From Crocinitomicaceae bacterium (GTDB taxonomy: Bacteria; Bacteroidota; Bacteroidia; Flavobacteriales_D; Crocinitomicaceae): a stretch of 64,000 nt of DNA. The notes under the pieces are model-generated. The model worked only from the letters and a program-made list of their open reading frames with translations. It was not told the origin of the DNA and made no database searches. Below are positions 3,391 through 43,932 of this stretch, in pieces; the stretch's first letter is position 1, and each line of letters starts with the position of its first letter. The position numbers were made by a program, and so were the translations under genes. The stretch spans positions 1 to 64,000 of the forward strand of contig JAQXCN010000054.1 of the NCBI GenBank assembly GCA_029251865.1. The letters run 5' to 3'.

Positions 3391-6300
3391 TTATTTTATT
3401 GTGATTTTTTCGATGTAAGTTTTGACACCATCATTTACGTGTAAAATATACACTCCTGATTTAACATCGAGATTAATTAGCGTATGTTCGGTTTGTAAAA
3501 TTTGATGGAATACAACCCGGCCATCTGCACTGAAGATTGCTAAGTCAGGGTTTGATAAAGTGTGCGAAATGGTAAATTGACCCTTTGAAGGATTCGGAAA
3601 AACAACAAATGGTGAGGCTAATTGATCAACACCACTTAATTGCCCCATTACGTTGATGTTGTCCATGAAAAAATTATTTCCCCAACCATTTATTGCAACA
3701 AATCTTATTGCTACGCTTTGACCCAAATAAGAGGTTAAGTCGATTGAATTGTTTGCCGACCAATCAGAACAATCGGAAGGATACCATTCATCGTTTGTAC
3801 TAGGAACAGTAATTAAATCATCTCCAAATGCGTAGAATAAAGTATCATATGAAGCCCAACAGTCGGAACTAATATCAATTCTAAAGCCGTCTTCATATGA
3901 ACCACCCCATTTCGTGTAGGCATAATCAAATTCAAGCATTGCACTAATGGCATTTGTCAAATCAATTTTAGGTGTAATTAACTCGGCCTCATCTTCCACT
4001 TGATTAATAGAAAAGTGGTTGACCATTACACAATTCGTAACTTCACAATCAGGTCCGTTTTCGGTATTAAATGGCGACCAACCATAAGAATTGTTTGCAT
4101 TATACTGTGTCCAAAACTCCGTAATACCTGATTCGAAATCCTCTATAACGTCCAATTGAGCAAGCGACTCCTCAAACTCAATAAACATTGAATAGGATTG
4201 TGAACTACTACCAAAATCATCTGTTACTGTGAGTGTAACATCATAGAATCCTGGATCATCATACTGCACTAGGGGATTTTGTTCACTTGATGAAGCAGGT
4301 GATCCACCCGAAAAAGTCCAAGACCAAGTCGGATTATTCGATGAAAGAACCGAATGGTCAATAAACTGAACTTGGTTATCCAAACAAGAAACTTTAAACT
4401 TATCTGCTGCAATTTGAGCCATTGGTTGGGAATCTTCATATAAATCAACTTCATAAACACTTCTGTTTGTCGCATTCCGAAGTAAACCATCTTTATACTT
4501 GATCACAAGCTTTGTGGATGTTGAACTTAAGGGTAAATTATTGTTAAACAAGGCCCAGTCAGTCATTGTGTTATTTCGGTAATAAACTGCACGCCGGGTC
4601 CCAATATAAACTCCCCCATTTGTTCCTTTTTGGTGCTCAATATTCGTAATAACTTCTCCATCAAGCGAACTACTTGAATAGTTACCCCAAGTTTGACCAC
4701 CATTTGTAGATTTAAAGACCATCCTTCCATTTAAATTCGTATTCCCATATTGAGAGGTCCTTGCCGCCCAAAGTACATTTTCGTTGCTGGCACTTACCGC
4801 AATATCAAAAGGAACCCAAAGTTCCCCATTTAAGAGCGCCAGAGGTGGTGTTATATCGGCCCATGTCACCCCGCCATCTTGACTGCTCCATATTTTTTTA
4901 TCGCCCCACCAACTTTCGTAGGTAGTCACATAAATAAAATTCAAATCAGCACGTGAAAGTTCAATACTCATTACCCTATGGTCGAATGAATGCACAATAG
5001 TATAGGATAATCCATTGTCCAAGGTCTTTAATAAGTTCTGACCTCTACCTAGGTATATATGCTGATTATTTCTCGGATCCCATTCCATAGTAGAGGACTC
5101 ACCAAAAATATATGAGCCATTTGGCAAAGAATCGAATTGAAATCCAACTATGTTTTGTGTGCGGTCTCCAGAGAGGACTCTTCCCTCGTAATCATCATAA
5201 GCAATACGGTCATCTCCAAAATTCACAAATCCACGCACCCCATCCCCACCTCCGGTACAAATCCAATCATTAATGTAAGTGTCGTTATCTTTTAATAAAG
5301 TTCCGTTGTGGTATGCCCCTCCTAACATAACGTCAGATTGTGGACTTGCGCCAAAACCCCAAAAATCAGTACCCTCAATCCCGACCTGAGACTTATTGAT
5401 CGTGGTTCCTCCGTCCGTTGACATAAAAATACCTCCATCACAAGCAATCCATAATTCGTCCCCAAAAAACCGTATGTCATGAATATCAGCATGCACATAG
5501 CCAAGTTCGGCAGGTTCAGACCACTTTGCTGGACAGATCCAAGTAACACCAGCATCTGTTGAAATCCAATGATTAACACCGCCTAAATGCAGTTTATCCG
5601 GATTAGTTGGATCTACTGCTAATCCAACATCGTAATAATATTGTCCTCCATTATCCTCTCCTTCCTTGTCCCAACCCATCATATTTATATTGGTTAAAGA
5701 CGGTGGACCCGCTGGCTGTTCACCACAACATTGAAAAGTCCATGATACGCCTTCATCTTGAGAGAGGTAAATGCCATAAGTGCCGCTTCCACCATTAGCA
5801 GAACCTGTAGCATTGGCATAAATTAAACTGGGATTTGCCGGAGTCACAGCGATTTCAACGCGCTCTTGATGGTCATCAGGACCAGTCGGATTTGGCCAGC
5901 CGTTGGTTTGAATAGCAAAGGTATTTGCACTATTTGTTGATTTGTAGAATTCTGTATGATTGTCGACTACTTTAATTGTATAAACAATCGATGGGATAGA
6001 AGGGTGCAATTCAATCTCTTGAAATTCGCCATCCATAATCTCTGTCCAAGTTTGTCCTGAATCTGTTGTCTTAAAAAAGCCTTTGTTAGATGTTAAATAG
6101 ATTTCAGATGCTACAGATGGGTGCATAACAATATCTTTTACGTTATGTGATTCCGCTTGAAAAGCGGGATCTCCAATTACCGCCCAAGAAAGTCCACCAT
6201 CTTGGGTTTTGTATAAGTTTCCATTGCTTTCGAAATACACAATATCGGGGTTTTCATGGTCTATTTCCAAAGCAAAAATCCGGTTCAAAACAAGGTCTCG

Positions 6301-6810
6301 CGTCATTAAGCTCCATGTATTCCCTGCATCAATGGACTTCCAAAGACCTGCAGTAGCAGTACCAGCAAACATTACACTTGTGTTGCTGACAGACCGCTCA
6401 ACTGTATAGACATGAGCGGCACCTGGCGCATAACTTCGGCTTGCTGCATCCTTATCAAAATCGAAAGGTCCAATACAATTCCATTCCGAATCAGAATCCT
6501 TTTGTTCGCGTAGGGCCATAGAGCGCTTGATATAATTTTGATCTGCTTTTGAAGATGACGAATAACTATATTGTCTGCTAAATTCGCGCAACCAACGTTT
6601 GTAATATTGTGTATGCTCGTCTTTATAAGGATCGTTCGTTTCAAAATAAGCATCGTGTTGCTTCATTACGAGCTCTGGATCTATACCTTCGGTATACATC
6701 GAAACAACCCACTCAGGAGAGTTAATATCGGCGCCATACTTCCTCTCAAGCTGCGAAGAAGAGAAAAAAGTAATAGTGAACAAAACATAAAAAAGAATAA
6801 GGCGTCTCAT
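3391..6810 (-). CDS. T9SS-exported Asp-box propeller protein with PKD and MAM-like domains
   Basis: 1139 residues. The signal peptide is residues 1-19. Asp-box propeller repeats (SIDAGNTW, TTDSGQTW, STDAGVTW, SSQDGGVTW, STNGGQTW) fill roughly residues 110-780. A PKD domain follows (about 815-900, with the typical PGFYDVTLTVTD strand), then a jelly-roll segment starting EDFESG that resembles MAM or choice-of-anchor modules (about 910-1060). The C-terminus is a type-A T9SS sorting domain with FPNPSKGQF and a final KITIK. Such proteins cross the outer membrane through T9SS and are released or attached to surface polysaccharide. No catalytic motif was seen, so an adhesin or carbohydrate/protein-binding role is the best inference. 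It precedes the related lipoprotein gene by 43 bases, so two propeller proteins with different export routes are probably made together. Confidence 0.85.
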   Translation of the reverse strand: MRRLILFYVLFTITFFSSSQLERKYGADINSPEWVVSMYTEGIDPELVMKQHDAYFETNDPYKDEHTQYYKRWLREFSRQYSYSSSSKADQNYIKRSMALREQKDSDSEWNCIGPFDFDKDAASRSYAPGAAHVYTVERSVSNTSVMFAGTATAGLWKSIDAGNTWSLMTRDLVLNRIFALEIDHENPDIVYFESNGNLYKTQDGGLSWAVIGDPAFQAESHNVKDIVMHPSVASEIYLTSNKGFFKTTDSGQTWTEIMDGEFQEIELHPSIPSIVYTIKVVDNHTEFYKSTNSANTFAIQTNGWPNPTGPDDHQERVEIAVTPANPSLIYANATGSANGGSGTYGIYLSQDEGVSWTFQCCGEQPAGPPSLTNINMMGWDKEGEDNGGQYYYDVGLAVDPTNPDKLHLGGVNHWISTDAGVTWICPAKWSEPAELGYVHADIHDIRFFGDELWIACDGGIFMSTDGGTTINKSQVGIEGTDFWGFGASPQSDVMLGGAYHNGTLLKDNDTYINDWICTGGGDGVRGFVNFGDDRIAYDDYEGRVLSGDRTQNIVGFQFDSLPNGSYIFGESSTMEWDPRNNQHIYLGRGQNLLKTLDNGLSYTIVHSFDHRVMSIELSRADLNFIYVTTYESWWGDKKIWSSQDGGVTWADITPPLALLNGELWVPFDIAVSASNENVLWAARTSQYGNTNLNGRMVFKSTNGGQTWGNYSSSSLDGEVITNIEHQKGTNGGVYIGTRRAVYYRNNTMTDWALFNNNLPLSSTSTKLVIKYKDGLLRNATNRSVYEVDLYEDSQPMAQIAADKFKVSCLDNQVQFIDHSVLSSNNPTWSWTFSGGSPASSSEQNPLVQYDDPGFYDVTLTVTDDFGSSSQSYSMFIEFEESLAQLDVIEDFESGITEFWTQYNANNSYGWSPFNTENGPDCEVTNCVMVNHFSINQVEDEAELITPKIDLTNAISAMLEFDYAYTKWGGSYEDGFRIDISSDCWASYDTLFYAFGDDLITVPSTNDEWYPSDCSDWSANNSIDLTSYLGQSVAIRFVAINGWGNNFFMDNINVMGQLSGVDQLASPFVVFPNPSKGQFTISHTLSNPDLAIFSADGRVVFHQILQTEHTLINLDVKSGVYILHVNDGVKTYIEKITIK

Positions 6811-6920: not shown

Positions 6921-7322
6921 ATGCTCATTTCAGAAGTAAGTTATCTCGGCAATTTAAGGACGGCAGCAACACATCTAAAGTCTAAAGACACCATAATTAC
7001 TGATGCCCCAACAGACAACAACGGCAAAGGACAAGCATTTTCACCCACTGACCTTGTTGCAACCTCTCTTGCATCATGCGTCATGACAATAATTGGTATC
7101 CATTGTAATGCAAAAAATATTCAGTTTGATTCCTGTGATGCAAAAGTTGAAAAAATTATGGGAGCAAATCCAAGAAGGATTAAAGCCATTAATTTGGAGT
7201 TTGATATTTCTAAAAACAATTGGGATCAAGAAACACGAAATAGCGTAATAAAAGCGGCCAAATCCTGCCCTGTAGGAATCACGCTTGAAGGCCAAGTAAA
7301 AGTTGATTATAAATTTAATTAG
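6921..7322 (+). CDS. OsmC family peroxiredoxin-like protein
   Basis: 133 residues, the usual length for OsmC/Ohr proteins. The two conserved cysteines are present: Cys53 in LATSLASC and Cys116 in AAKSCPVG. In the family these reduce organic hydroperoxides through a Cys-disulfide cycle. The segment FSPTDLVATSLASC is the typical substrate-pocket helix. The protein is cytoplasmic, with no signal peptide. The stop codon TAG at 7320-7322 is followed directly by the ATG of rlmB, so the two are very probably co-transcribed. It is closer to the general OsmC (YhfA-like) branch than to classical Ohr by eye, but the subgroup cannot be settled here. Confidence 0.88.
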   Translation: MLISEVSYLGNLRTAATHLKSKDTIITDAPTDNNGKGQAFSPTDLVATSLASCVMTIIGIHCNAKNIQFDSCDAKVEKIMGANPRRIKAINLEFDISKNNWDQETRNSVIKAAKSCPVGITLEGQVKVDYKFN

Positions 7323-8093
7323 ATGGAACACAGAAAAGAACAATACCAAAGAAAAGAAAAAAAAGATATCATTTTTGGTATCCATCCAGTTATTGAGGCA
7401 ATAAAATCAAAGCAAGAACTTAATAAAATTATGATTCAACGCGGGATTGATAAAGAGCTTTTCCGTGAACTTAAAGAGGCTCTTGCCGATAAGGACTATT
7501 ACATACAATATGTACCGATTCAGAAATTAAATACCCTTACAGCAGGGAACCACCAAGGAGTTGTAGCTTTTGTAACTCCAATTGCCTACCAAAATATTGA
7601 GCAGTTGGTTGATCAGTGGGTTGAAGAAGAAAAGAAACCATGTATTCTAGCATTAGATAGAATTACCGATGTGAGAAATTTTGGAGCAATCGCGAGGTCT
7701 GCTGAATGCCAAGGTGTAGATGCTATTTTGATACCTTCAAGAGGCTCAGCTCTTGTAACTGCGGATGCGGTAAGAACTTCGTCTGGTGCTTTGAGTAGAA
7801 TTCCAGTGTGCAAAACCGAAGACCTAAAAAACAGTCTCTTCTATATTCAACAATCTGGATATCGTATCGTTGCATGTACTGAGAAATCATCCATGCCGCT
7901 TCAAGAGGTTAATCTGAGAGGTGCAATGGCTATTGTTATGGGTTCTGAAGAAAATGGTATTACATCAGATTTAATTAACATGGCAGATTTACGAACAAAT
8001 ATTCCTATGCTTGGAAATATTGCTTCTCTCAACGTTGGTGTCGCCACAGGCATAATCCTTTACGAAAAAATGAGACAAGAACTCAATAGATAA
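7323..8093 (+). CDS. rlmB: 23S rRNA (guanosine-2'-O-)-methyltransferase RlmB
   Basis: 256 residues. It has an N-terminal L30e-like RNA-binding domain (about 16-90, starting FGIHPVIEAI) and a SpoU/TrmH catalytic domain with its three motifs: motif 1 around 112-128 (DRITDVRNFGAIARSAE), motif 2 at 204-213 (IVMGSEENGI) and motif 3 at 227-248 (IPMLGNIASLNVG). These form the trefoil-knot SAM site. The enzyme 2'-O-methylates a guanosine in the peptidyl-transferase region of 23S rRNA (G2251 in E. coli). It starts one base after the OsmC stop codon. TrmH-family members on tRNA are the main alternative, but the L30e-like N-terminus and length favour RlmB. Confidence 0.9.
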   Translation: MEHRKEQYQRKEKKDIIFGIHPVIEAIKSKQELNKIMIQRGIDKELFRELKEALADKDYYIQYVPIQKLNTLTAGNHQGVVAFVTPIAYQNIEQLVDQWVEEEKKPCILALDRITDVRNFGAIARSAECQGVDAILIPSRGSALVTADAVRTSSGALSRIPVCKTEDLKNSLFYIQQSGYRIVACTEKSSMPLQEVNLRGAMAIVMGSEENGITSDLINMADLRTNIPMLGNIASLNVGVATGIILYEKMRQELNR

Positions 8094-8097
8094 CACG

Positions 8098-8817
8098 TTA
8101 AGTAGTAGCAAGAAGTTGCTTCGTTATCATTTCAGGGAGTTGAGATAAATGTGTGCACGTGTGAATATAATTCTCATTGGATGTTTGGTGAGGATCAAAA
8201 TGAATCGCCTTAATACCTGAATTAAGAGCTCCAGATACATCTGCTCTAAAGTCATCTCCAATCATAATTGAATCTTGAGCCTTGCAACCGGCTTGCTCCA
8301 TTGCGTATTGGAATATAGCTCGTGAGGGTTTGTTTTTACCCACCGCCTCAGAACATACCACAACATCAAAATAATTTGCGATACCGCAATTTTTAAGCTT
8401 TATAAATTGAACCTCTTCAAAACCATTTGTAATGATGTGAAGTCTAAAACCGATTGCCTTTAACTCATCCAAACATTGAATTGCCCCAGGGAAAAGACGC
8501 TTCTGAAAGGGTGAAAGCGCCACATACATACCTCCCATTTCTTTCGCTAAAGTCAAATTATCGATATTAAACTGATTTAGCGTTGCATTAAATCGCTCAT
8601 ATCTCAACACTTCTTTTGTTAATTTACCGTCACTATATAATGACCATAGTCGGGCATTCTGAGCTGCGTATGCGTTATAAAACCTTTCGAAAGTTTCAAA
8701 AATTGATTTCAGATTCAATTCACTGAAAATCTGCTTTAACGCAACTTTTGAATTTTCATCAAAATCCCAAAGTGTTCTGTCAAGATCAAAAAAAACATGC
8801 TTACTAGACAAAGACAT
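8098..8817 (-). CDS. yjjG: YjjG-type HAD noncanonical pyrimidine nucleotidase
   Basis: 239 residues from the ATG at 8817; a TTG two codons upstream is also in frame but less likely. HAD motif I is FFDLDRTLWDF with nucleophile Asp11 and Asp13, motif II is the Thr in IITNGFEE, motif III the Lys in GKNKPS, and motif IV IGDDFRADV. The DLDRTLWDF sequence with a helical cap is characteristic of the YjjG group, which dephosphorylates pyrimidine nucleotides, including damaged ones, and so cleans the nucleotide pool. The gene follows a small membrane protein gene with a 14-base overlap and, upstream of that, uracil phosphoribosyltransferase, which fits a pyrimidine-salvage neighbourhood. Confidence 0.85.
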   Translation of the reverse strand: MSLSSKHVFFDLDRTLWDFDENSKVALKQIFSELNLKSIFETFERFYNAYAAQNARLWSLYSDGKLTKEVLRYERFNATLNQFNIDNLTLAKEMGGMYVALSPFQKRLFPGAIQCLDELKAIGFRLHIITNGFEEVQFIKLKNCGIANYFDVVVCSEAVGKNKPSRAIFQYAMEQAGCKAQDSIMIGDDFRADVSGALNSGIKAIHFDPHQTSNENYIHTCTHLSQLPEMITKQLLATT

Positions 8818-38978: not shown

Positions 38979-39839
38979 CTAATGTAGAATGACTTTCTTT
39001 ACATACACGTTCCCAAGCGCCTCTACAGAAACAATATAAATACCTGATTCGAAAGTACTTAAATCGTATTTATTTTGAAGATTAGATAGCTTCGTGTCCA
39101 TACGTACCTTACCACTTAAATCAATGATTCTAAAAAAACCTTCAGAATCAAAGGATGATAGCTCAATACTTAATAAGTTTTTGTTAATATTTACATTGAC
39201 TTCTTGAGGTGTAAACTCAGTGATATTCGTGTTCATATTCCCAACACTGAGGGGATCCCCACTTTGAGATGCATCATAACCATATGAATGAAGTGTGATT
39301 TGACTTCCGTCAGATAATACAGAAACTTCTATCCACCCCAAGTGCAGACTCCCGGCAATATCAAACATTGCTCCCAAGTAACCTTGTTCACCACGAAATG
39401 CACCATATTGATAGGGTAGGCTTCCAATTACACCAGTATTAATAATAAGATCAATACCAATAGCATAACTTGTATCTTCACCGTACTCCTGGAAAACTGT
39501 AAGCTCATCTCCAGCAACGAGTCGTGAAACGTCAAATGCTGAGGTCTCAGCAGAGGTGGCACCAGCAGGCTTTCCATTTTCACAACCGAGTAAGGCACCT
39601 GAACCTTCATATGTAGCAGGTAAACCCGCAATTGTAGTATCACCACTTAGATCTTGAACTAAAAAATAGAACTCAATAACACCATCACCGTTAAAATCGA
39701 AGGCATATGGCTCACTGGATGCATCAATCGTAACTTCAGGAGAAAAGTTACTACTAATTACCTGGGCCTGATATTTACCCATTAAGCTAAAAAGAAGAAA
39801 AGTGAAAATTATAAGTACGTTACTGCGTTTATTTTTCAT
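38979..39839 (-). CDS. Small T9SS-exported protein of unknown function
   Basis: 286 residues from ATG 39839; a TTG further upstream overlaps the DUF983 gene and precedes the signal peptide, so it is rejected. Signal peptide 1-25 (GKYQAQ) is followed by a domain with an FNGDGVIEFYF motif, suggesting a calcium-binding or hydrolase-attached repeat, and a beta-rich body that I do not recognise. The C-terminal 75 residues form a type-A T9SS sorting domain (FRIIDLSGKV, FESGIYIVSVEA, VKKVILH). It is transcribed after the DUF983 gene, with a 44-base gap between the two. Confidence 0.78.
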   Translation of the reverse strand: MKNKRSNVLIIFTFLLFSLMGKYQAQVISSNFSPEVTIDASSEPYAFDFNGDGVIEFYFLVQDLSGDTTIAGLPATYEGSGALLGCENGKPAGATSAETSAFDVSRLVAGDELTVFQEYGEDTSYAIGIDLIINTGVIGSLPYQYGAFRGEQGYLGAMFDIAGSLHLGWIEVSVLSDGSQITLHSYGYDASQSGDPLSVGNMNTNITEFTPQEVNVNINKNLLSIELSSFDSEGFFRIIDLSGKVRMDTKLSNLQNKYDLSTFESGIYIVSVEALGNVYVKKVILH

Positions 39840-39883
39840 GATTGTATTGATTTGTTTCGAAATTACAAAAAGGACACGAACTA

Positions 39884-40273
39884 TCAATTCTCATCAGCCA
39901 CCTTCTTACTTGTATCCTTATCAAAATGAATAAAGATATTGGCATAAATGATTTTCGATAGTGCAAAAAGTAAAGGGCTTAATATTATAATTAGAAAAGT
40001 AAGCACTGAAATCTGAGTCCAAACAGAAACATCTCCGAAAAACCAATTTGCACCTGCCCATATTGCTACAAATAATGCAACTCCCAAGGCATAAGAAACG
40101 TACATTGCACCAAAATAAAAACCCGGCTCGGGAATAAAATTTGTTTTACATTTAGGACATTCTTTTAATACATTTCCAAGACGTTTTAAATCATACACAT
40201 GAGATTCAAAAAACTTACCGTGTAAGCACTTTGGACATCTCAATTTGAAAATACTGTATAATTTAGGCATCAT
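39884..40273 (-). CDS. DUF983 zinc-ribbon membrane protein
   Basis: 129 residues from ATG 40273 (ATG 40270 is equally possible). Two CxxC pairs (Cys13/Cys16 and Cys39/Cys42) form a zinc-ribbon-like head, followed by two membrane spans (about 53-75 and 87-108) and a charged tail. This is the DUF983 layout, common in Bacteroidetes and alphaproteobacteria, with unknown function. A TAnnTTTG box ends six bases before the first ATG. Confidence 0.85.
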   Translation of the reverse strand: MMPKLYSIFKLRCPKCLHGKFFESHVYDLKRLGNVLKECPKCKTNFIPEPGFYFGAMYVSYALGVALFVAIWAGANWFFGDVSVWTQISVLTFLIIILSPLLFALSKIIYANIFIHFDKDTSKKVADEN

Positions 40274-40382: not shown

Positions 40383-42716
40383 ATGAGAAATTTTTATTCA
40401 CTTTTCAGTGCGCTCGCCTTGTATATTCATGCCTTTGGCCAATGCACCACAACAAATGCTACGAGCTGTGAATGCGCAGACGGAACTACCAACTGTTTAC
40501 TTTTGCCTGATATTACTGCATCCTGGCAGGGTATTGCCGATAATGGCTGGATCGAATATCCACAAAATGGTGCGGGACAAAACTTTAATAATCAAGGTCC
40601 CGATGACGGACGCTTGAGAGTAACTGGTTCTACGCCTAATATTGGACATGGTTCATTTACAGTTCGTGGAGTCGACTCGAATGGTTACAGGGCTTTTATA
40701 TGTGGAAATGACACCATTTATGACGAGAATTCATCCGGCTCATTTACTTGTCCTAATGGAGAAGAGAATCCGAAACAAATGCTTTTACAACGTGTTTACA
40801 AGAAAGAGGGGAATACCATGAGTTATGAGGATACATGGACTGGAAGTATGACTTATCATGAAAGCCATGGCCATAATCATGTAGATGATTGGGCCGTTAT
40901 GACCTTGAGGATTCCGACTACTGATCCAAATCCGTTGAATTGGCCTATTGTTGGAGACGGTGCAAAAATCGGTTTTTGCCTCATGGATTATGGACAATGT
41001 GGCACTACTGCCGGCAGTACATATTATGGACATTGTAGAGATGATAATACATCATTTAATGGTGGTAATGTCATGGCGAATGTTGACTTTACAAATTGGA
41101 ATTTAGGAGGAGGCAGTTACGGCTGCTCCGTAGTTGAACAAGGTATTTCTTCAGGTTGGACAGATGTCTACGGCTACTGGCTTGATGGGATGTGGATAAA
41201 TATACCAGAAAACACCTGTAATGGAGACTACTACATTGTTATGGAGGTAGATAAGAATAATTATTTTCAAGAAGAAGATGAAGATAACAATTATACGGCC
41301 GTACCTGTTACGCTAACACAACAGCATCCTGAAAACTCGGGAATACTCCCAACCATAAATTCCAATGAATCCAATAACCTCTGCTTAGGACAGACGATTA
41401 CACTTACCGCAACTGCAGGAACTGATTTTCTATGGTCCAACGGCGCCACAACTCAAAGTATCGTTGTATCCGAACCCGGAAGTTACGAATGTACAGTAAC
41501 TAATTTTTGTGGTTCAAATACCTCATTACCATTTGTTGTAAGTAGCGCAGTTCCTTCACCGCCTGTAGTTGAAGATGTAAGCGCATGCACGGGAACGTAC
41601 GTTGTTCTTGAGGCATCATCAACAGGAGAGATTGAATGGTTCGATGATAATGGAAACTTTTTAAATAATGGTATCACACATACAACAAACCCACTAATTG
41701 AAAATATGACGATTTGGGTTCAAAATACAGATTCGTATACAGAAACAGTAAATGCAGAACCTTACACGAATGGTATTGGCGGTGGCGGGTACCTCAGCTC
41801 TAACCATGGTAGTATCTTTCATGCCTATACACCCTTTACATTGAAGAGTGTATTGCTCTATGCACTGAACGGGGGAAGCGTTACTATCGAATTACAGGAA
41901 GAAGACGGTACTGTGATCCAAGTTTTTACAGAAACTGTACCTGCAGGAGCAAGTCGAATAAATTTAAATTTCGAAATTCCAATAGGCTACAATTACCAAT
42001 TGGTGGGTACAAATCTCCCAAATGGAGGCCTGTATAGAAATAACAACTCTGCAACTTATCCTTACATATTGGATGATATACTTTCGATTGTTGGCGCTAC
42101 TTCAAGTTCTTCTTATTTTTATTACTTCTATGATTGGGAAATTGAAACAGAAAACGGCACTTGTACGAGTGACTTAATCCCTGTTCAAGTAACTGTGGCA
42201 GATCCAGATGCGCCAATTGCAGAAGGAACAACAATTTGTACAAATGAGGTTGCACAACTCACGGCATCAGGCTCAGGAACTCTCAATTGGTTGGATGCGT
42301 TAGGAACTATTTTAGGTTCGGGGCCGAATTTCTCTACACCAACGTTGACAGAAACAACGACCTTTTATGTTCAAGCATCTGAAAATAATTGCACCAGCAT
42401 TTCAGTACCAGTTGAAGTTCTTGTTGAATCTTGCGCTGACCTCAGTGCACTTACAATAAAAAACACAATTGGGATTTCTCCCAATCCTTCAAACGGAATA
42501 TTTTTGATTTCTTATGACCTTGCTCAGAAAAACAAAGTAGAAATCGAGATTATTAGTACTACTGGTAAACGCATATTTAAGAAAAGTTATCAAGACCAAG
42601 CGGGAGAAAACAATCATGAAATCTCTTTAAAAAACGTCTCAGATGGAATCTATTCAATCATAATTTCATCAGGGCAAGAAATTTACACAGATAGATTAGT
42701 CATTCAAAATGACTAA
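40383..42716 (+). CDS. T9SS-exported lysyl-oxidase-like copper amine oxidase
   Basis: 777 residues. Signal peptide 1-19 (HAFGQ). Residues about 40-310 form a lysyl oxidase domain (Pfam Lysyl_oxidase type). The copper motif H-x2-H-x-H-x-H is HESHGHNH at 159-166. Lys195 in GAKIGFCLMD and Tyr263 in SGWTDVYGYW align with human LOX Lys320 and Tyr355, the pair that forms the lysyl-tyrosylquinone cofactor; flanking motifs QGIS and GDYYIVMEVD...DNN also match. Two Ig-like modules follow (about 325-390 and 605-680), with a jelly-roll-like stretch between, then a type-A T9SS tail (SPNPSNGIF to the end). The expected activity is oxidative deamination of lysine or other amines at the cell surface, with H2O2 release. 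The next gene overlaps by eight bases. Confidence 0.85.
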   Translation: MRNFYSLFSALALYIHAFGQCTTTNATSCECADGTTNCLLLPDITASWQGIADNGWIEYPQNGAGQNFNNQGPDDGRLRVTGSTPNIGHGSFTVRGVDSNGYRAFICGNDTIYDENSSGSFTCPNGEENPKQMLLQRVYKKEGNTMSYEDTWTGSMTYHESHGHNHVDDWAVMTLRIPTTDPNPLNWPIVGDGAKIGFCLMDYGQCGTTAGSTYYGHCRDDNTSFNGGNVMANVDFTNWNLGGGSYGCSVVEQGISSGWTDVYGYWLDGMWINIPENTCNGDYYIVMEVDKNNYFQEEDEDNNYTAVPVTLTQQHPENSGILPTINSNESNNLCLGQTITLTATAGTDFLWSNGATTQSIVVSEPGSYECTVTNFCGSNTSLPFVVSSAVPSPPVVEDVSACTGTYVVLEASSTGEIEWFDDNGNFLNNGITHTTNPLIENMTIWVQNTDSYTETVNAEPYTNGIGGGGYLSSNHGSIFHAYTPFTLKSVLLYALNGGSVTIELQEEDGTVIQVFTETVPAGASRINLNFEIPIGYNYQLVGTNLPNGGLYRNNNSATYPYILDDILSIVGATSSSSYFYYFYDWEIETENGTCTSDLIPVQVTVADPDAPIAEGTTICTNEVAQLTASGSGTLNWLDALGTILGSGPNFSTPTLTETTTFYVQASENNCTSISVPVEVLVESCADLSALTIKNTIGISPNPSNGIFLISYDLAQKNKVEIEIISTTGKRIFKKSYQDQAGENNHEISLKNVSDGIYSIIISSGQEIYTDRLVIQND

Positions 42717-43932
42717 GATTTTAAGTTGTACTTTACACTTAATATTTATTGTGCTTGCCTCGAAAGGGCAGGCACAATTTATTTACAACTATACCGCAGA
42801 AAACTCGCCACTTCCATTTAACACTGTTCGATGCCTTGAGTCATCATCTTCAGCGCTATGGATTGGAACTGATGAAGGTCTCGCCAAATTAAGTGGTGGA
42901 AACAATTGGACCATCTATAACGCAGGTAATAGTGGCTTATGGAGTAACGATGTTCGTGCACTAAAAAATGATGGTGATTCTTTACTTTGGATTGGAACGG
43001 TTCAGGGAGGATTATTTTCATTTGACGGTTTAAACTGGACCAATTACACACCTCTAAACTCTGGTCTTGGAGATTATCTGGTGAGGGGTATTGATATTGA
43101 TATACAAGGAAATATTTGGATTGCGACTACGGAAGGCTTATTCGTTTATGATAGAACGAATTGGAATACTTATACAACTAATGATGGTTTACTATCGAAC
43201 AATACAACAACCATTTGCGCAGCAGGAAACACAAAATATATTGGAACCATTAACGGTGGCGTATTATACTTCGACGAAACAAACAATTTTATAAATCATA
43301 CAATTGTGAGTTCTGGAATACCAGATAATTCTGCTCTTGATATAGAAATTGATAACAATGGTAGGCCATGGTTTATATCACCTGCGGCAGGATTGTTTGT
43401 AGATGATGGAGATGGTGGACCTTGGGACGTCTTTAATTCCGGGAATTCAGCTATCGCGTCGAATAGCCTTCTTTGTCTACAACATGGGCCCCAAGGTCAG
43501 ATCTTCATAGGCACCGAAACGGATGGTATTGTAACAAAAAATGGCAACCAGTATTCGAATTTAAATATTGATAATTCAGCGCTTACTGATAATCATATTT
43601 TATGCTTAGAAAAGAATGAAGAAAATACTTTATGGGCGGGCACTTTTAATGGTGGATTGTGCGAAATTCATGATATTGCAGGGTTATTACAAAAAGGTAG
43701 TTATCCACCTAATATTCACCCGACAATCGTGAACGCAGGCGCGTCAATTCATTTTTCTAAAAATGTAAATTGTACTTATTCCCTAGTAAATATGCTTGGA
43801 GATGAATTTAAAACAGGCACACTAAAAAATTCAAGGACAATAAACATCCCAAAGACAATAAAACCAGGTGTGGTATTTATTTACTATTCAATAGATAATA
43901 CAATCTTTACGAGGAGAGTAATTGTTCACTAG
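42709..43932 (+). CDS. T9SS-exported two-component-regulator-type propeller protein
   Basis: 407 residues with a signal peptide (about 1-22, SKGQAQ). Seven or so repeats of the Reg_prop kind follow (LWIGTDEGLAKLSGGNNWTIY, LWIGTVQGGLFSFDGLNWTNY, IWIATTEGLFVYDRTNWNTY, LWAGTFNGGLCEI), forming a beta-propeller usually found as the sensor of hybrid two-component systems. Here no kinase is attached; the C-terminal 75 residues instead look like a divergent T9SS tail (VVFIYYSIDNTIFTRRVIVH). It is translationally coupled to the lysyl-oxidase-like gene by an 8-base overlap, so the two may work as a pair on the cell surface. The stop codon interlocks with that of meaB (CTAG, 43929-43932). Confidence 0.8.
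   Translation: MTKILSCTLHLIFIVLASKGQAQFIYNYTAENSPLPFNTVRCLESSSSALWIGTDEGLAKLSGGNNWTIYNAGNSGLWSNDVRALKNDGDSLLWIGTVQGGLFSFDGLNWTNYTPLNSGLGDYLVRGIDIDIQGNIWIATTEGLFVYDRTNWNTYTTNDGLLSNNTTTICAAGNTKYIGTINGGVLYFDETNNFINHTIVSSGIPDNSALDIEIDNNGRPWFISPAAGLFVDDGDGGPWDVFNSGNSAIASNSLLCLQHGPQGQIFIGTETDGIVTKNGNQYSNLNIDNSALTDNHILCLEKNEENTLWAGTFNGGLCEIHDIAGLLQKGSYPPNIHPTIVNAGASIHFSKNVNCTYSLVNMLGDEFKTGTLKNSRTINIPKTIKPGVVFIYYSIDNTIFTRRVIVH

Follow-up and report, generated by a model that had tools for sequence, protein, structure and literature searches.

A divergent lysyl oxidase of Bacteroidota with a T9SS sorting domain and a recurring propeller partner

Lysyl oxidase (LOX) is an animal enzyme that cross-links collagen. 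The 64,000-nucleotide stretch of DNA analyzed in this work, referred to below as the window, encodes a protein of the LOX family whose gene overlaps that of a predicted beta-propeller, and the conservation of this pair among relatives is a sign of a two-protein system, so far undescribed, at the surface of the bacterial cell. The reading that we favor, and regard as reasonably probable, is that the first protein is a surface-displayed copper/lysyl-tyrosylquinone (LTQ) amine oxidase of a divergent LOX subfamily, which works with a dedicated propeller. The recurring propeller offers a genetic handle on the role of prokaryotic LOX, as a specific second protein that may act in binding, targeting or substrate presentation. 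That role is treated as an open question in the sections consulted of two papers (PMC4448552, PMC6452851). In the open-licence literature no paper was found that deals with a regulator propeller and lysyl oxidase together, the combination of T9SS and lysyl oxidase led only to an unrelated Porphyromonas/cancer review, and none of the matches listed concerned the biochemistry of this subfamily.

Membership in the lysyl oxidase family

The LOX gene occupies 40383..42716 on the forward strand, as do all the features described for its product; it starts with ATG and encodes 777 residues, according to the open reading frame listing and to Pfam and NCBIfam profiles. Residues 1-19 (40383..40439) were recognized by eye, from this sequence and those of relatives, as an N-terminal signal peptide with likely cleavage before QCTTT. 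The LOX domain comprises residues 20-318 (40440..41336), on the basis of alignments A1-A3, an AlphaFold2 model and a match to human LOXL2 (5ze3). Homology to lysyl oxidases had been proposed in a first-pass annotation made from the sequence, and this proposal was borne out: the protein matches PF01186 (Lysyl_oxidase) with 28.9 bits against a cut-off of 20.4, and LOXL2 is the only strong PDB match of the predicted domain. The PF01186 match covers only profile positions 128-197 of 204, the C-terminal third, and is the sole one at E <= 0.001 in the 2.38-Mb genome to which the window belongs; all 50 members of alignment A3 match the profile at this same threshold.

PF01186 is rare in the phylum, with matches in 4 of 392 evenly drawn genomes when the window's own is counted. 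In a set of 100 genomes from its genus and order the profile found a match in 34, and the proteins fall into two classes, canonical and divergent. Canonical proteins align from PF01186 positions ~29-49 to 190-197, about three quarters of the profile, with E about 1e-25 to 1e-34, whereas those of the divergent class, which includes the window LOX, match the last third only. Both classes coexist in five genomes (G009, G018, G047, G052 and G065), and the canonical Bacteroidota LOX (L002-L017, from the same genus and order) stand on a separate side of the tree from the window type with support of 100/100. By its sequence, then, the window LOX belongs to a divergent subfamily of Bacteroidota.

The distance between this subfamily and the animal enzymes can be bridged by profiles. 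A joint profile of canonical and window-type rows reaches LOXL2 5ze3 at E 3e-29, in an alignment that runs through the lysine discussed below. When the window-type profile is used alone the match is at E 7e-4 and is carried by the tyrosine segment (21.1 bits), and the lysine segment lines up with GHKASFC of LOXL2 but is weak by itself (4.1 bits). The AlphaFold2 model of the LOX domain (pLDDT 89.4, pTM 0.88) gave, in Foldseek, two chains of LOXL2 5ze3 (prob 1.00) as its sole matches at E <= 0.001, and in VIA it was matched to 5ze3 with Z 13.0 over 178 residues at 3.4 A, the next entry having Z 6.9. CARDB (Z 6.9) and GH2 domains were considered as relatives of the model and set aside, since we take them to share Ig-like sandwich parts only. 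Because the invariant residues described in the next section, the profile matches to LOXL2 and the predicted fold agree, membership of the window protein in the lysyl oxidase family is secure.

Catalytic residues and their constraint

The motif HESHGHNH at residues 159-166 (40857..40880), Lys195 in GAKIGFC (40965..40967) and Tyr263 in TDVYGYW (41169..41171) are all found in the sequence as annotated earlier. By homology, H162, H164 and H166 are the predicted copper ligands. Profile alignments to 5ze3 place Lys195 and Tyr263 opposite the LTQ pair of LOXL2, as had also been claimed; the partners of these residues lie in the LOXL2 segments GHKASFC and WDMY, respectively, and the two are thus the predicted LTQ lysine and tyrosine.

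Conservation was assessed in the best 80 of 102 LOX loci of relatives taken from genome_contigs, all of them by their titles metagenome-assembled or uncultured. These counts refer to loci and not to independent events, as several loci come from one genome and two (L105 and L106) are nearly identical. At position 159 histidine is kept in 78 of the 80, and at 162 and 164 in 76 each; position 166 is H in 75, Y in four and unread in one. The three ligand histidines, described in the first-pass annotation as intact, are present in the window protein and are found together in 75 of these 80 relatives, with one partly unread and four in which they have been lost. Every row that can be read at position 195 (79 rows) has Lys and every row that can be read at 263 (75 rows) has Tyr, and three histidines plus a readable Lys and Tyr are present in 70 of the 80. 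Since the histidines, the Lys and the Tyr are kept across the best 80 of 102 loci, the HESHGHNH motif is not a product of chance. Alignment A2, with 13 rows drawn from both classes, shows no variation at H162, H164, H166, K195 and Y263 or in 18 other columns.

The window locus was also compared with L031 for dN/dS, which was ~0.017 for the LOX domain, 0.089 for the Ig/tail part and 0.162 for the next gene; these values come from a simple Nei-Gojobori count with dS near or beyond saturation, and only the contrast between the parts is meaningful. The same order was obtained in three more comparisons, and the catalytic domain is therefore the most protected part of the locus. From these sequence comparisons the LOX domain is judged to be under strong purifying selection.

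These results bear on the alternative that the protein is a catalytically dead LOX fold that serves at the surface to bind metal or in a purely structural capacity. We think this improbable, given the retention of the histidines in 75 of the best 80 loci and of Lys and Tyr wherever they can be read, and given that no other part of the protein is nearly as constrained as the LOX domain. Such a reading would nonetheless be in keeping with the altered cysteine pattern, and with a side clade, described below, that lacks the copper histidines and keeps Lys and Tyr, so that the fold can evidently persist without copper. The distance of Lys195 and Tyr263 from the histidines would not be decisive for LTQ, because the solved structure of the LOXL2 precursor (5ZE3) has a separation of 16.6 A between Lys653 and Tyr689, according to the part of PMC9659206 consulted.

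Differences from canonical, animal and archaeal LOX

The window LOX shares with human LOXL2 and LOX the predicted fold (5ze3), the H-x2-H-x-H-x-H motif and the aligned LTQ lysine and tyrosine. It differs from them in its cysteine pattern, in carrying Ig modules and a T9SS tail where the human proteins have SRCR domains or a pro-region, and in the spacing from Lys to Tyr. This spacing is 68 in the window LOX and 62-68 in those relatives in which the search pattern located both residues, compared with 32-33 in 16 canonical Bacteroidota LOX and about 35 in the human proteins (35 for human LOX from the K320/Y355 numbering, as given in the accessible portion of PMC4448552). The longer spacing and the insertion that the earlier annotation had deduced are thus confirmed. 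Alignments place ~33 extra residues within the stretch of residues 203-250 (40989..41132), the precise borders of the insertion varying with the alignment, and three cysteines conserved in the family (C206, C218 and C248) lie within this Lys-Tyr stretch. Canonical Bacteroidota LOX have invariant HxHxH, Lys, Tyr, Trp and several Cys; in A2 the two cysteines that flank the LTQ tyrosine and the cysteine of the canonical xCHxHxH are absent from the window type.

The first histidine of the animal motif, corresponding to H159, occurs in none of the eight canonical rows of A2, and the 2015 survey, in the text consulted, describes it as missing from bacterial sequences and its loss as tolerated (PMC4448552). 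The window subfamily shows that the animal-type first copper histidine does occur in bacteria.

A characterized prokaryotic LOX is HTU-LOX from Haloterrigena turkmenica, which the sections of PMC6452851 used here report to be active, copper-stimulated and BAPN-sensitive. Being archaeal, HTU-LOX would not be expected to have a T9SS tail.

Export and proposed chemistry

Beyond the LOX domain the 777-residue protein carries Ig_7 modules, which are over the Pfam cut-off (72 bits in two stretches, the higher-scoring one at 42204..42425, PF19081), and a type-A T9SS C-terminal sorting domain at 42474..42704. The latter was detected by PF18962 (Por_Secre_tail, 48.1 bits, cut-off 27) and by TIGR04183 (36.5 bits, cut-off 23). 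The same genome encodes SprA (TIGR04189, 2386.8 bits, cut-off 200) and contains 82 sorting-tail matches. Both the Ig-like modules and the type-A tail had been reported in the first-pass annotation, which regarded their fusion to LOX as a new element. The modules and the tail are present; the tail, at least, is not new, because Por_Secre_tail is found on 8 of the 10 canonical LOX scanned from relatives (10 of the 11 complete proteins among 16 loci, some of them closely related) and because LOX in Bacteroidetes has already been published (PMC4448552, in the portion consulted). By these profile matches, T9SS-tailed LOX is not new to the window protein.

On the basis of family knowledge, we propose that the LOX protein would reach the cell surface by way of Sec and T9SS and be displayed there, and that copper bound by H162, H164 and H166 would oxidize Tyr263. 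The oxidized tyrosine would then join Lys195 to form the LTQ cofactor, and primary amines would be converted to aldehydes with the release of H2O2 and ammonia. As to the substrate, our guess is lysyl side chains and/or small amines, and for the propeller it is likewise a guess that binding to the substrate matrix, or tethering of the enzyme, is the most likely role.

The identity of the amines matters for a second reading, in which the protein is an active copper amine oxidase that does no cross-linking and has a nutritional or antagonistic role, obtaining ammonia and aldehydes from small amines or directing H2O2 against neighbors. We consider this a serious though doubtful possibility. HTU-LOX has a relaxed specificity and oxidizes many primary amines, according to the same sections of PMC6452851, and this lends the idea some weight; the tail, the Ig modules and the recurring propeller, however, fit a function at the surface or in the matrix at least as well.

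The propeller protein

The gene directly downstream, at 42709..43932 on the forward strand, encodes a Reg_prop beta-propeller of 407 residues with a hydrophobic N-terminus, identified by Pfam, NCBIfam and a structural model (pLDDT 91.2, pTM 0.74). The two genes share 8 nucleotides (ATGACTAA), where the start of this one lies within the end of LOX; this overlapping gene had been missed in the earlier annotation. Reg_prop is found in all 49 members of alignment A4 and Por_Secre_tail in 33 of these, and the tail of the window copy scores 18.8 against the NCBIfam cut-off of 23 and so falls below it.

PorZ (5m11) and the sensor propellers BT4663 and BT3049 are of the Reg_prop type like the partner, with a Foldseek probability of 1.00 and profiles that match the same entries. 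The partner differs from these in having one propeller and a tail within 407 residues and no histidine-kinase part. An identification with PorZ itself was rejected, as NF052228 gives 48 bits against a cut-off of 260. No strongly conserved Lys, His or Cys was found in the partner, the best columns reaching 76% for Cys, 67% for Lys and 57% for His, and for this reason the ideas that it delivers copper as a chaperone or serves as a fixed lysine substrate were also rejected. Relative to L031 the propeller is 58% identical, as compared with 93% for the LOX domain, a fast change of the kind that a variable recognition protein might show.

Pairing and co-occurrence of the two genes

In the best 80 of 102 loci, a propeller is paired with LOX in 61: it follows LOX immediately in 54, precedes it immediately and on the same strand in six, and lies downstream after one open reading frame in one. 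A partner was called at over 60 bits, and seven of the 80 loci were not assessable since the sequence ends within 300 bp. (A laxer first pass, which took the next open reading frame at E <= 1e-3, gave 56 downstream partners, including weak tail-only matches.) The single locus with an intervening frame is L035, in which that frame follows a run of undetermined bases within LOX and probably represents the remaining part of LOX itself. The partner was not seen in 12 of the 80 loci (L069, L080, L081, L085, L094, L099, L101, L104, L105, L106, L108 and L109), two of which have short downstream sequence (513 bp in L094 and 1445 bp in L080). The six loci with reversed order cluster together in the tree (100/95). 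The next commonest neighbor of the window, a DUF983 gene, was present in 25 of the same 80 loci, which are of unequal length.

Co-occurrence was then scored in the 100 genus and order genomes, which are related and are therefore not 100 independent observations. The LOX subfamily is present in 25, a propeller orthologue (169 bits or more) in 24, both in 23 and neither in 74. In propeller-rich genomes scoring was limited to 18 candidates each, and weak matches in G085 (84.9 bits) and G062 (82.1 bits) were treated as paralogues and left out of the count. For G036 and G040, in which the LOX gene is split over contigs, the presence of the genes was scored and not their adjacency. The three discordant genomes all have the relevant gene at a contig end: in G006 the contig stops inside a frame resembling the propeller start, in G039 it opens, just before the propeller, inside a sorting tail resembling that of LOX, and in G051 it stops inside LOX.

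It could be argued that the propeller gene is an operon passenger that does no joint work with LOX. Reg_prop-like candidates are numerous in these genomes, the propeller evolves far faster than the LOX domain when both are compared with L031, and 12 of the best 80 loci have no partner. Against this, the pair is found in 61 of these loci and other neighbors in 25 or fewer, it is kept in reversed order in one clade, and, apart from contig ends, the two genes are present or absent jointly in the 100 relatives. We accordingly give the passenger explanation a low probability.

A side clade without copper histidines

The four loci in which all three copper histidines have been lost (L105, L106, L108 and L109, among the best 80 of 102) keep both Lys and Tyr. 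The LOX-like proteins of L105 and L106 are the same, and those of L108 and L109 share 74% and 61% identity with them, which means that Lys and Tyr have been kept through real divergence. In the tree, three histidine-less rows group at 100/100, and L085 joins the histidine-less loci at 93/91, short of starred support. Because Lys and Tyr persist here without a copper site, their conservation alone is no proof of LTQ, and these natural losses within the subfamily provide material for studying the mutual dependence of Lys, Tyr and copper. Another LOX homologue lacking the histidine core was described from a red alga in the consulted part of the 2015 survey (PMC4448552).

No propeller is found at these four loci or at L085 and L099, and in all six the LOX-like gene (near 5944 in L105, L106 and L108, 5458 in L109, 5941 in L085 and 5875 in L099) heads a tight cluster in which genes for a Fer4_5/TPR protein, a cytochrome c and a DUF5777 barrel follow. 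Five of the six also have a second cytochrome c-like gene, the sequence of L105 ending before such a gene. These genes were assigned partly by Pfam and otherwise by BLAST, and the second cytochrome is over the cut-off only in L099 and weak in L106. The loss of the propeller together with the change of operon fits a propeller that belongs to the copper enzyme; in L085 and L099 the propeller is missing and the histidines are present, which shows that the two losses are not strictly linked.

Among the best 80 LOX loci, DUF5777 is confined to these six. A general link between LOX-like genes and DUF5777-cytochrome operons was rejected, since DUF5777 is widespread in the class (259 of 296 genomes) and since no match to the LOX profile at E <= 10 was found in 20 DUF5777 regions, mostly best matches and three of them shortened by contig ends. 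BLAST of these 20 regions with the LOX-like protein gave stretches of 38-48 bits in three only.

Combining these observations, one may imagine a two-protein LOX system on the surface of uncultured Bacteroidota, in which LOX and a co-exported propeller would oxidize and cross-link the extracellular proteins of the cell itself or of a neighbor, as a counterpart in bacteria to the cross-linking of the matrix in animals. In the side clade a cytochrome operon would have adopted the scaffold, with cytochromes in place of copper and oxygen making or using the quinone cofactor. We offer this wider scheme as a speculation that is, taken whole, rather unlikely.

Other genes at LOX loci

Carriage by viruses was considered and rejected, as none of 66 pattern-matching stretches in viral_contigs encoded a relative. 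Close upstream of LOX in the window, at 38979-39887 on the reverse strand, is a gene for a 302-residue protein of unknown function that has its own T9SS tail; BLAST relatives of this protein, which may include tail-only matches, are present in 22 of the best 80 loci. The LOX gene of L104, from a metagenome-assembled chromosome titled complete, is split or frameshifted: its open reading frame (5944-6774) ends after ~276 residues and is followed by a frame (6957-8237) containing Ig_7 and a sorting tail, and no propeller was seen. In the clade with the upstream propeller, a gene for an FG-GAP/UnbV_ASPIC protein of 735 residues lies directly 3' of LOX in L082 (4252-6459), and a gene of similar size occupies the same place in L090.
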